From assembly GCF_004339015.1 (NCBI RefSeq), contig NZ_SMFQ01000003.1, forward strand, positions 310,001 to 374,000: a DNA stretch of 64,000 nt, read 5' to 3'. The position numbers were made by a program, and so were the translations under genes. Origin of the DNA: Cocleimonas flava (lineage in GTDB: Bacteria; Pseudomonadota; Gammaproteobacteria; Thiotrichales; Thiotrichaceae). How positions within the stretch are numbered: the first letter of the stretch is position 1; every line of letters begins with the position of its first letter. The notes beneath the pieces were generated by a model that saw only the letters and a list, made by a program, of their open reading frames with translations, ran no database searches and had not been told where the DNA came from. Positions 4,247-10,706 of the stretch are shown one piece after another.

Positions 4247-4930
4247 TTAACGTCTTAGCAATGCGATCCATCTCCAGACGCTCAAAATACTTGTGAGTGA
4301 AGCAGCGATATAAGTAAATGCTGCGGCTTTTAAGATTGAGTTAACTGCAGCGTGATCTTGTTCACGTATATAACCCTCTTTAAGAATTGGCATCGCTTTA
4401 CCAAAGCTCGCATCCCATTCTACTGGTAATGTCACCAAGTGAACGACTGACGAACCTGCAATACTAAGTAATCCGGTAGCAATAAATACAAAACCCGCCA
4501 ATGGACTTTTGGTAAGAATTACAACAATCGGCATGACCATCATTATGACTGAGCCAAACTTTTGTAGCTTAATTGACGATTTCACCAAGGTTGAACGCAA
4601 TGCTAATTTCGTCTCATTACGATCATCCTGAATAGCATGACCTACCTCATGCGCTGCGACAGCAACAGCAGTTAGTGATTTTTTATTATAATTACTGGGT
4701 GAAAGCCTAACCATTTTACTTTCAGAATCATAATGATCATTACCCTCTTCTGTTTCTTCAACCCCAACATGTGACATTTCGAAACGTTTTAAAAGGTGAA
4801 TTGCAAGCTCGCCACCAGTACCATCGATATGATCTTGTTCATTTGAATAACGCTGAAATATGCGTTTGGCCCACCACTGTGGAACATAAATAATAAATAC
4901 AATAAAGATGACTAAAAGTAGAATATGCAT
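4247..4930 (-). CDS. Membrane zinc metallopeptidase, YugP-like
   Basis: Probable inner-membrane zinc peptidase of the Zn_peptidase_2 (YugP) family; its substrate is unknown. The 227-residue protein starts with a hydrophobic helix (about 2-18). HEVGHAIQD at 94-102 carries the HExxH zinc motif, and hydrophobic stretches follow at about 128-165 and near the C-terminus, consistent with a membrane-embedded enzyme. The AGAGG before the ATG is closer to it than usual, so the start is slightly uncertain. It converges on metH and appears to be a single-gene unit. Family assignment is by recognition of the motif and topology. Confidence 0.85.
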   Translation of the reverse strand: MHILLLVIFIVFIIYVPQWWAKRIFQRYSNEQDHIDGTGGELAIHLLKRFEMSHVGVEETEEGNDHYDSESKMVRLSPSNYNKKSLTAVAVAAHEVGHAIQDDRNETKLALRSTLVKSSIKLQKFGSVIMMVMPIVVILTKSPLAGFVFIATGLLSIAGSSVVHLVTLPVEWDASFGKAMPILKEGYIREQDHAAVNSILKAAAFTYIAASLTSILSVWRWIALLRR

Positions 4931-5734: not shown

Positions 5735-5788
5735 AAAAACCCAGTCTATTTAATGAGACTTTATGCTCATTAAATAGACTGGGTTTTT
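5735..5788. terminator. Perfect 23-bp inverted repeat, terminator
   Basis: Arms 5735-5757 and 5766-5788 are exact reverse complements around an 8-nt loop (ACTTTATG). Each strand ends in five T after a GGG/CCC-based stem. It lies just after the stop of the minus-strand coiled-coil gene (5853), whose transcript it should terminate. The symmetry would let it work in both directions. Confidence 0.85.
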
Positions 5789-5852: not shown

Positions 5853-7619
5853 TTACACGCTGACATGAAATTCCTGATGTTCTTGCATTTCTTGTAAACT
5901 GGCTTTTATCTGCTCTTGTTTTATTTCAAGCTCACGGATTTCTTGTCTTTTTGACTGTTGATTTTCTTCAATCTTCTTCAACGCTTCTTGTTTCATCGAT
6001 TGCTGCTCTTCCAGCTCTCTAATTTCACGTTGCTTTACGACTTCAACCTCAGTCTTCTTTTGACCCAGTTCGATTAGTTCTTGTTTTACAGCTCGCAGCT
6101 CTTCTTTGCGTAATTGCTGTTGTTGCTCAAGTATATTTAATTCTTTTTGCTTCTCTCTTTGAACTTCAGCTTTATGTTCGTCAAGTTTTTGCTGTCTTTG
6201 CGACTCAAGCTCACTCTGCTCTAATTTAATATTCTTTTGCTCTTCGATATTTTCAAGATCTTTATTTTTACCATCTTTTTGTGATTCTAGATCAGCAATA
6301 TCCTGCTCTACCAATGCAACCTGATCCTTTAGTTTTTGTAAATCTTTTTGGCGAAGATCAAGATGCTTATCTATTTGCTTAATGTCTTCAAGCTTATTTG
6401 TTTTTTGTTCATCTAATTGAGCTATCTGCTGTTTTTCAAATAGAACACTTTGCTCTTTTTTCTTTTCTAGCTTTTGATCTACCATTTCTAGTTGATCAAG
6501 CTCTTGCATCTTCCTGTGAGCCTGCTCATCAAGCTTTGCTAGTTCTTTTTCTTTAAGTTCTTTCGCTTCGAGTTTTCTGGTTTCTAACTCAGTGTGTTCA
6601 CGTTGATCAATCTCCATTTCCTGATGCTTAAGCGCATAATACTGCTCAAGTTGCTGGATACTTTGTTGAGTTAACTTTTGACGCTCTTTAAATTGATTCA
6701 ACTCCAGTTGTGTTAATTCAATTTCTTGATCTAACTGCTTAATATCTTGTTGCTTTAACAGCTGTCTTTGTTGATTAGGATTATTGCTATTATTTGATGA
6801 CATAAAGCTTTGAACGGGAGCATTTTGATTATGATCTTCGTTTGTGGACGTCTCAGAATGCATTTCTGACACTGCTTCTTTAGTTAATTTGTCTACATCA
6901 TGATTTAGCTGGGTGTTAGATGTATAAATCGGACCTTCAGATTCGGCTGGATTTTCTAATTCAGCTTTTATTTCTTCAACTTCTTGATGTTCACTATCTT
7001 CTAGATTTGAATCATCTTGATTGTTAATTTCTACATTGTCTGTGAAATCGATAGATTGATTATCGGTTTCTTTTTTATTTTCAGTATTTTCGAGGACGAT
7101 TTCAGATTTATTGTCAGAACTTTGATCCGACTCATTTGTTTTTATTGTTTTGTCTTTTAATTCTGATTCCTTGCTCATTTCTTCTGACTCTTTTTCTTCT
7201 TCTACTTCTTCATCAAGCAGCATATCCTCAAAATCAGAGACGATCATCTCGTCCAATTCTGCATGAACATCAGAAAGAAGTTTTTGATAATCATTTGAAT
7301 GCATTTCTAAATCATTAAATCGCTCAATTAATTCAGCGCGTGTTTTAGGGTTATACATACGCATCGATTCATAATACAAAACGCTATAAGCCTTATGGAA
7401 TTTTGTGTGAATATCGTTAATGTCTTTATACCAGCCAAACTTTCTAAGCCTAGTGCCATTTGAATTAAACCAAAGATGGAACTCACAATCATCGCAATTC
7501 AGTGGCGCTTGAGCAGTTTCAAGATTTAATCCATCGATAAGAATTTGTCCGTGCTTAATCCAGACGACATGCGTATCAATTGCATTTTTGATAATACTGA
7601 TGACTTTTTCTTTTTTCAT
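5853..7619 (-). CDS. CZB-type zinc-binding coiled-coil protein
   Basis: A 588-residue cytoplasmic-looking protein with no signal peptide or membrane helix. Residues about 1-85 fit the chemoreceptor zinc-binding (CZB) domain: H17, C45 in CEFHLWF, and the pair H71/H75 (HTKFH) match its three-His, one-Cys site. Residues about 130-270 are acidic and Ser/Asn-rich, probably disordered. Residues about 285-580 are an almost uninterrupted Gln/Glu/Lys/Leu coiled coil. CZB domains normally sit at the end of chemoreceptors or diguanylate cyclases; here there is no output domain except the coiled coil. It is divergent from rep. A zinc- or redox-sensing scaffold role is a guess. Confidence 0.75.
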   Translation of the reverse strand: MKKEKVISIIKNAIDTHVVWIKHGQILIDGLNLETAQAPLNCDDCEFHLWFNSNGTRLRKFGWYKDINDIHTKFHKAYSVLYYESMRMYNPKTRAELIERFNDLEMHSNDYQKLLSDVHAELDEMIVSDFEDMLLDEEVEEEKESEEMSKESELKDKTIKTNESDQSSDNKSEIVLENTENKKETDNQSIDFTDNVEINNQDDSNLEDSEHQEVEEIKAELENPAESEGPIYTSNTQLNHDVDKLTKEAVSEMHSETSTNEDHNQNAPVQSFMSSNNSNNPNQQRQLLKQQDIKQLDQEIELTQLELNQFKERQKLTQQSIQQLEQYYALKHQEMEIDQREHTELETRKLEAKELKEKELAKLDEQAHRKMQELDQLEMVDQKLEKKKEQSVLFEKQQIAQLDEQKTNKLEDIKQIDKHLDLRQKDLQKLKDQVALVEQDIADLESQKDGKNKDLENIEEQKNIKLEQSELESQRQQKLDEHKAEVQREKQKELNILEQQQQLRKEELRAVKQELIELGQKKTEVEVVKQREIRELEEQQSMKQEALKKIEENQQSKRQEIRELEIKQEQIKASLQEMQEHQEFHVSV

Positions 7620-7846
7620 TGTTAACCCGACAACTCGATTATTTTTATTAAATTATGATTCGATGTGCAATATAGCTATATTAATGCAGTATTCATTGTT
7701 TATCAAAACGAATAGATCAGCGGTATATAGTGTTTACAGCGTGTTTTACATCTTGCAAACAAACAAATAAAATAATTGTAATCAAATAATGCAAAAGGCC
7801 AAATCTAGGTCTACCATAGCGACTCTTTTATCAAGTAATACTATCC

Positions 7847-10052: not shown

Positions 10053-10706
10053 TTATTGTTCTCTAAAGGTATTGCCACAGAAACGACAACGAAGGAAACG
10101 AATATTAGGAAGGCTTGAAACTTCTTGAGAGGGTTTTAATTTAATTACATTTTGACTACCACAATTTGGGCAATCACCTTCATTGTGCGCAGGCAGATTT
10201 GGTAAATCGACTTTGGTATCACTAACGCGTTGTCTACCAACAGGCTTTTCTTCCGTTGATAGTAATGATGCAGTTGCTACACTTTCATCCGCATCTAGAG
10301 GTGGTAAACGATTATCGTGTTCGGCAATCAAACGCTGGCATTGTTTTCTAAATGGATTTAGCAGACCGACTTTATCAAACTCATTTCTAAATTCATTGAG
10401 TAATTCTTTTGTCGGGAGTTTTGGCTGAAAATCTGGCTGCATAAAACTAAACAGAAACAACTGATGTTTAGCCCAACGTAATAGGCCGTCATCATCCAGA
10501 CAAAGTACTTCTTGCAGCGCTACCAAACGCAATAAAATTAATTGTTCATTTCCAGAAAGATTAACCATTTTCTTGGTTTCAAAAAACTTTTTGAATCTTG
10601 ACCAAGGCAAGCTACTGGAGAATAAAGCAATAGTACTTATAAAATGCGGGTCCGGTGCAACATATGAACTTCCCTTTCCCATTTCTTCCGCAACATATAA
10701 GTTCAC
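10053..10706 (-). CDS. Transposase-N-domain-like protein with C-terminal zinc ribbon
   Basis: Function unknown, 217 residues. Residues about 30-130 (LPWSRFKKFF, LLRWAKHQLFLFSF, FRNEFDKVGLLNPFRKQ) resemble the helical N-terminal domain of IS5/IS1182-type transposases (DUF772), but the DDE catalytic domain is absent. A variable linker (about 131-175) leads to a C4 zinc ribbon: C179/C182 (CPNCG) and C207/C210 (CRFCG). The reading frame is intact and ends cleanly, so this is not an obvious pseudogene. It could be a domesticated transposase part acting as a DNA-binding protein; the similarity is judged by eye. Confidence 0.6.
   Translation of the reverse strand: MNLYVAEEMGKGSSYVAPDPHFISTIALFSSSLPWSRFKKFFETKKMVNLSGNEQLILLRLVALQEVLCLDDDGLLRWAKHQLFLFSFMQPDFQPKLPTKELLNEFRNEFDKVGLLNPFRKQCQRLIAEHDNRLPPLDADESVATASLLSTEEKPVGRQRVSDTKVDLPNLPAHNEGDCPNCGSQNVIKLKPSQEVSSLPNIRFLRCRFCGNTFREQ

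Follow-up and report, generated by a model that had tools for sequence, protein, structure and literature searches.

The CZB-coil gene and its product

The window analyzed here is a stretch of 64 kb (64,000 nucleotides) from the 4.49-Mb genome of Cocleimonas flava. The locus, the features of which are collected in Table 1, is centered on a gene for a protein with an N-terminal CZB-type head, an acidic linker, and a long coiled coil.

Table 1. Features of the CZB-coil locus, with positions counted in the window
Feature	Position	Strand	Basis
CDS, 588 aa (CZB head, acidic linker, coiled-coil rod)	5853..7619	-	ORF with ATG start; orthologues
CZB-type domain, residues 1-125	7245..7619	-	Pfam PF13682, hhalign, Foldseek
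Zinc-ligand codons	H17 7569-7571; C45 7485-7487; H71 7407-7409; H75 7395-7397	-	
Acidic disordered linker, residues 126-279	6783..7244	-	pLDDT, dN/dS, spacing variation
Fixed-length coil core, residues 288-557 (270 residues)	5949..6758	-	Length constancy, predicted helices, dN/dS
Probable coil repeat 1, residues 288-421	6357..6758	-	Profile self-match at shift 134
Probable coil repeat 2, residues 422-555	5955..6356	-	hhalign of repeat 1 vs repeat 2
Shared upstream element	7704..7725	-	Precedes all 10 coil-bearing genes
Probable sigma-70 promoter, TTGATA-17-TAATAT	7678..7706	-	-35 overlaps 3' end of the element
Intrinsic terminator, 20-bp stem and T-rich tail	5738..5785	-	3' of the gene

An earlier note, made from the sequence alone, had described an acidic linker followed by about 300 residues of Gln-rich coil, and the composition of the protein bears this out. 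Taken as the 156 residues from 123 to 278, the linker contains 47 Asp or Glu vs 11 Lys or Arg residues; the coil, taken as the 303 residues from residue 286, consists of 18% Gln, 18% Glu, and 14% Lys without any proline. The sequence stretch quoted in that note, EQQQQLRKEELRAVKQELIE, is found in the protein. In Pfam searches with E values up to 1, CZB was the single domain detected, with no GGDEF, EAL, CheW, or MCPsignal output domain, and NCBIfam gave no match. The full-length AlphaFold model, built from two rows, has pLDDT values of 70-90 in blocks of the head (except residues 31-40, with 53) and below 50 in the linker (residues 137-279), followed by long helices at residues 281-457 and 461-587.

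Assignment of the head to the CZB family

The Pfam CZB profile (PF13682) has a curated cut-off of 29.4 bits. In the full-length protein it matches residues 17-77 at 26.6 bits (E 8e-6), which is under the cut-off, whereas residues 1-125 alone reach 31.6 bits, a borderline pass; the score of the gene in the genome search was 32.0 bits. The earlier note had staked its CZB assignment on this profile, and so the assignment falls short with the whole protein and holds with the isolated domain. Among the ten coil-bearing members of the family, the domains of three (the window protein, which is L001; L002; and L007) pass the cut-off, L009 scores 29.3 bits, four others are between 20.1 and 25.7 bits, and the heads of L006 and L013 have no CZB match with this profile.

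In a profile-to-profile comparison by hhalign, the ten coil-bearing heads aligned to a set of 30 CZB domains found elsewhere in the phylum with a probability of 97 over 108 columns; the four heads with an intact zinc site reached 84 on their own, and the six with a broken site 97. The set had been selected from the phylum sample, among frames 306-1115 aa in length, by an expression requiring the zinc quartet. Residues H17, C45, H71, and H75 of the window protein, the positions of which had been given correctly in the earlier note, align with the quartets of these 30 domains, which were chosen for having one.

In the structure comparison by Foldseek, the first of 350,542 PDB chains for the two-row model was the CZB domain of DgcZ (3t9o_B), with E 0.16, a probability of 0.99, and a TM score of 0.72 by target length; no match of this model reached E 0.001. 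The same entry had the best Z score in VIA-align (12.7 over 114 residues), with unrelated four-helix sensor domains tied at 12.2-12.6. Entries for talin, DosC, and chemoreceptors also appear on the VIA list and were not taken as a sign of kinship. A two-row AlphaFold model of the CZB domain alone had a mean pLDDT of 49 and was set aside for the full-length model. Sequence searches of the PDB returned a sole unrelated chain (E 0.67) for the single window head, and mostly syntaxins (E 0.075 or higher), with 3t9o not found, for the 10-row profile of coil-bearing heads; with a 23-row profile, 3t9o appeared at E 0.41 after an oxidoreductase at 0.30. Overall, the CZB-type call for the head is good but thin, and the structure comparison is supportive of a CZB fold, not decisive.

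Taxonomic distribution and origin of the coil-bearing form

A search for the head in 95 genomes, including the source genome, found matches in 12, all of them from the genus Cocleimonas, which is related to sulfur bacteria, and the coil-bearing form is present in ten of these. The gene is missing from G001 and G004, which are 97% and 94% complete, respectively. Nine members are full-length, whereas the tenth (L004) runs off the end of its contig. The only named relative, a contig of an uncultured Cocleimonas, is 81% identical over the head and encodes a protein identical to that of G007. The head had no match in the plasmid and phage collections, and PHROGs gave none. The order of CZB, linker, and coil reported in the earlier note thus recurs in ten genomes, including that of L004. 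Between the window gene and L024, the dN/dS ratios are 0.037 for the head, 0.45 for the linker, and 0.025 for the coil, where dS is saturated and only the contrast is meaningful; head and coil are under purifying selection in this close pair. The same order of parts in ten genomes and this selection on head and coil argue that the architecture is not a chance arrangement.

Outside the genus, we searched a class sample of 369 genomes with the profile of coil-bearing heads (E 1e-5). It gave 46 rows, two from the source genome and 44 others, and as far as these 44 were examined none has the CZB-coil layout. Frames longer than 200 aa account for 29 of them: 19 carry MCP tags, eight GGDEF or EAL tags, one is CZB-only, and one was recognized by eye as a degenerate GGDEF, the tags being assigned by regular expressions. 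The other 15 are in frames shorter than 200 aa, four of which were judged by frame length alone. This census covers the CZB proteins within reach of the coil-bearing head profile; a phylum-wide CZB search, with matches in at least 146 of 398 genomes, was not used for architecture. The coil profile at E 1e-8 found only the window gene in the 369 class genomes, and in a set of 57 genomes it gave two weak matches outside the genus (1.1e-6 and 5e-4).

On a midpoint-rooted maximum-likelihood tree of 30 CZB domains, on which L012 is a long branch of unsure placement, the ten coil-bearing domains form one clade (98/97). Grouped with this clade are L008, L010, and L011, all of them CZB-only (92/85, branch not starred). 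Because the coil-bearing domains share one clade, the simplest reading of their origin is a single fusion of a CZB-only protein to the coil, which is probably what these sequences reflect.

A second CZB-only group, also present in the source genome, stands apart from the coil-bearing clade on the tree. The proteins of this second family (L014 in the source genome and L015-L023) are about 150 aa long, have a conserved FDRR stretch after the CZB domain, and occur in ten of the 12 genomes; two of them, L019 and L021, have neither C45 nor H75. A separate observation concerns G010, where a contig-end fragment truncated by the contig start (L082:3-1277) suggests a second coil protein.

Zinc ligands in the coil-bearing family

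CZB domains are described as homodimers that bind zinc by three histidines and one cysteine (PMC8262984), and they have been proposed to read the pool of bioavailable zinc (PMC13370339). This quartet is complete in four of the ten coil-bearing members vs 18 of 20 CZB-only relatives (Fisher p 0.007, a value that ignores relatedness); the CZB-only proteins with a complete quartet are 11 of 13 within the genus and seven of seven from outside it. The six coil-bearing members with a broken site are without one or two ligands, with H17 lost in four, C45 in three, H75 in one, and H71 never. Since L005 keeps H17 and has lost C45, the group of L007, L009, and L013 has the opposite pattern, and the broken-site L006 sits inside an intact-site group on the tree, parsimony by hand indicates at least three separate breaks. 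L005 retains the upstream C42, which is a possible alternative ligand.

The Cys motif differs in a further position. A near-universal glycine in this motif (PMC8262984), at position 4, is replaced by His48 in the window protein and L002, and is present in four of ten coil-bearing members as compared with 18 of 20 CZB-only relatives. Within the genus, C42 and C45 form a CxxC in 11 of the 13 CZB-only proteins as well as in the window protein and L002, which is possibly an extra ligand or a redox pair; position 42 is His, Ala, or Glu in the seven CZB relatives from outside the genus. A Zur-like box pattern has four matches in the 64 kb vs 3.76 expected, the nearest 3.3 kb off, so that the vicinity of the gene showed no Zur-like operator.

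With its site intact and its head strongly conserved, the window protein likely binds zinc, as judged from sequence. However, because most of the relatives have a broken site, it seems to be the rod that is maintained in this family, and not the sensing of zinc; a response to zinc would be an ancestral trait confined to particular lineages. These data bear on the zinc- or hypochlorite-responsive scaffold of the earlier note. In such a mechanism, zinc loss or Cys45 oxidation would loosen the CZB dimer, and this change, transmitted to the coil, would switch partner binding, consistent with the complete quartet and CxxC of the window protein, a head that is strongly constrained in closely related species, and the reports of the CZB domains of DgcZ and TlpD as HOCl and zinc sensors (PMC8262984). 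We nevertheless consider it rather unlikely, given the ligands missing from six of ten members, the Gly48 to His replacement, and the lack of a Zur-like box near the gene. Moreover, direct mechanical coupling between head and rod is unlikely because the linker between them is long, disordered, and under weak constraint. The scaffold part of the earlier proposal fits the anatomy of the protein, whereas its zinc or hypochlorite response is weakened.

Length, periodicity, and internal repeat of the coil

Between two invariant anchors, the coil core measures 270 residues in seven of the nine full-length members and 269 in the remaining two, and the alignment of the core has no gap other than the single-residue one in those two. 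This constancy holds at an identity to the window coil of 25-41% for most members (87% for the close L002). The spacing from Tyr89 to the coil, on the other hand, ranges from 78 to 201 residues across the same nine proteins. A rod of constant length behind a linker free to vary suggests a spacer or scaffold of fixed reach. Helix breakers are few, with zero to two prolines and zero to five glycines per coil.

In eight of the nine members, a hydrophobic core-residue period of 3.52-3.54 is the strongest one, reached by none of 300 shuffles in each case. The window protein departs from this pattern, with its highest peak at 2.78 and a second-order peak at 3.52 that two of 300 shuffles reach. Self-comparison of the coil profile gave a score of 13.1 at a shift of 134 residues vs a shuffled maximum of 5.5, and shifts of 14, 39, 53, and 120 also score. 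When the two halves were compared by hhalign, repeat 1 and repeat 2 matched with a probability of 97.1, and 132 of the 134 columns were in register. A window moved stepwise through the second half settles on the shift of 134 or, at earlier positions, on that of 120, and the probabilities drop where neither shift is available. The self-similarity is partly a 14-residue periodicity, on top of which the coil probably consists of two 134-residue copies that arose by duplication.

The long coil of conserved length, its strongly constrained Gln-, Glu-, and Lys-rich sequence, and the layout of head and rod could also belong to a filament-forming cytoskeletal element, an intermediate-filament-like protein or polar organizer in which the head would be a mere cap. 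Proteins of these kinds rarely have a disordered linker between head and rod. That difference, the absence of any sequence match of the coil profile to a solved structure at E 0.001, and the absence of shape genes among the 17 scanned neighbours make this explanation an unlikely one.

Upstream element and transcription

All ten coil-bearing genes, in six neighbourhoods, have on their 5' side a 22-bp element with the consensus TACCGYTRATCYAWTRYTTTTG (the copy in the window and L027-L035). The window copy, TACCGCTGATCTATTCGTTTTG, differs from the consensus at two positions. The first 12 bp are exact in all ten genes, and the full 22 bp have zero to three mismatches. The element starts 68-169 bp before the first in-frame ATG (in L032, a likelier start is 66 bp further on). 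Measured against one fixed 22-base sequence, the ten coil-bearing genes match at 17-22 positions and 13 CZB-only genes at 12-15. The local 23-bp form of the element has one exact site in the source genome and none at one mismatch.

The terminal TTG of the element can serve as a -35 box, which places its conserved part at an activator or operator position. The best -10-like hexamer is at an offset of 40-43 from the element start in eight of ten genes, although it was sought only at offsets 34-47 and its position is not independent; a promoter scan of the region alone is at chance (10 found, 10.3 expected). In the 12 genomes, the 22-bp consensus with up to three mismatches has 22 sites, ten before a coil-bearing gene and 12 elsewhere, as compared with 16 for a reversed-pattern control. 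Eleven of the sites elsewhere were inspected (L132 was left out), and two of them, both at three mismatches, have a gene start 74-89 bp further on. The exact 14-bp core has 26 sites vs 10 in the control: ten precede a coil-bearing gene and 16 are elsewhere, including 11 inside frames longer than 120 aa, three with a gene start 86-132 bp on, and two left unassigned. Within the window, the 12-bp core at up to two mismatches has 33 sites vs 22 expected, a number reached in three of 100 shuffles, and the 10-bp core is at chance. Similar upstream stretches precede a few other genes.

The terminator after the gene suggests a single-gene transcript, and the gene probably forms a transcription unit of its own, with a promoter that has a dedicated regulator site.

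Gene neighbourhood

The gene rep adjoins the coil-bearing gene in five genomes (the window, G003, G007, G008, and G011), and the other five (G002, G005, G006, G009, and G010) have five different neighbourhoods. The homologue search proposed in the earlier note recovered the architecture in ten of 12 genomes of the genus, with neighbours in common only within the rep group. An operon of the gene with its neighbours in the window was set aside in view of the terminator and of the differing adjacent gene in G002, G005, G006, G009, and G010. One of the neighbours in G009, a sulfate permease, matches a window gene 13 kb away. A 217-aa protein encoded at 10053-10706 of the window has weak zinc-ribbon matches at its C terminus only, and is 72-96% conserved beside rep in two relatives. 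In the window, L028, and L031, the CZB-coil gene is followed downstream by a Zn_peptidase_2 gene of the same strand (4247-4930 in the window); in the window, a CBS-domain gene stands between the two. In the neighbourhoods and genomes examined, there was no partner, operon, or phenotype that identifies a role.

We also considered the chemosensory apparatus of the genome. CZB domains are most common in soluble chemoreceptors (PMC8262984), and the genome has a single MCPsignal match with two CheW-domain frames nearby on the same contig, the only chemosensory system found (taken as Pil-Chp-like), to which the protein could be accessory as a soluble receptor-like rod. The lack of an MCPsignal match in the protein and the location of its gene on a different contig (C2 vs C3) make such a role highly improbable.

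Comparison with known CZB systems

The 2021 mBio census of CZB proteins (PMC8262984) sets out seven architecture classes, none of them named as a plain coil. A CZB domain with an acidic linker and coil is outside these seven classes as given there, in agreement with the remark in the earlier note that no described system is known to have such an arrangement. No paper on it appeared among the titles and abstract beginnings searched; PMC9665402 and PMC10653840 deal with other CZB proteins. Domain calling would class the window protein with the CZB-only subgroup (27.1% of the census sequences, PMC8262984), the proteins of which likewise have no other detectable domain. The CZB-only proteins of the genus are its nearest relatives on the tree, but the window protein adds a linker and a coil of about 300 residues, and zinc ligands have disappeared from six of the ten proteins with a coil.

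Among proteins of known structure, E. coli DgcZ (PDB 3T9O) shares the N-terminal CZB domain and the ligand order and is the top fold match, but has a GGDEF cyclase as output, whereas no catalytic domain was found in the window protein. The middle domain of DosC (Pfam DosC_2nd, 'CZB-like middle domain'; 4ZVC and 4ZVD), at Foldseek ranks 2-4, has a CZB-like fold that is not known to depend on a zinc quartet; in contrast to the window protein, this domain is internal in a globin-coupled cyclase that has no coil. Soluble chemoreceptors of the TlpD/McpA type combine CZB with a long helical coil in a single protein. However, their CZB domain is mostly C-terminal and their coil is the chemoreceptor signalling region, while the window protein has an N-terminal CZB domain and no MCPsignal match.

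Proposed function and significance

In the explanation that we prefer, and to which we give about an even chance, the protein is a cytosolic rod restricted to the genus: a dimeric spacer or scaffold of fixed length with a CZB-fold head and dedicated transcriptional control. The N-terminal domain would most likely act as a homodimerizing head, as does the CZB domain of DgcZ, followed by the flexible acidic linker and then by a rod, a parallel coiled coil of about 270 residues that was probably derived from duplication of the 134-residue unit. At a rise of 0.15 nm per residue, such a rod would measure about 40 nm when fully extended. To bind partners or to assemble end to end, the spacer or scaffold would need its reach or register to be fixed. 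Its zinc site would be inherited from the ancestral CZB-only protein; where intact, as in the window species, it may still tune the rigidity or dimerization of the head, and six of ten members would keep the protein without the full site. Against the spacer or scaffold stand the strong conservation of the head between the two closest species, which also fits a working zinc sensor, the two of 12 genomes of the genus without the gene, and the heptad signal of the window protein, weaker than that of its relatives.

A bolder version, which we regard as doubtful, is that these proteins represent a new class of fixed-length bacterial 'ruler' rods, in which the CZB fold was repurposed within one genus from a zinc sensor to a dimerizing cap and the gene retains its nearly gene-specific regulator site at whatever genomic location it occupies.

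CZB domains are known as zinc and HOCl sensors that drive chemotaxis or c-di-GMP output, and in the present family a structural rod is the likely output. A class as large as the CZB-only proteins can hide architectures that domain calling misses. The absence of the full zinc site from six of ten members offers a natural test of the role of the CZB fold apart from the metal, and the set of ten orthologues, with intact and broken sites, a near-invariant coil length, and a shared upstream element, makes this question directly testable.
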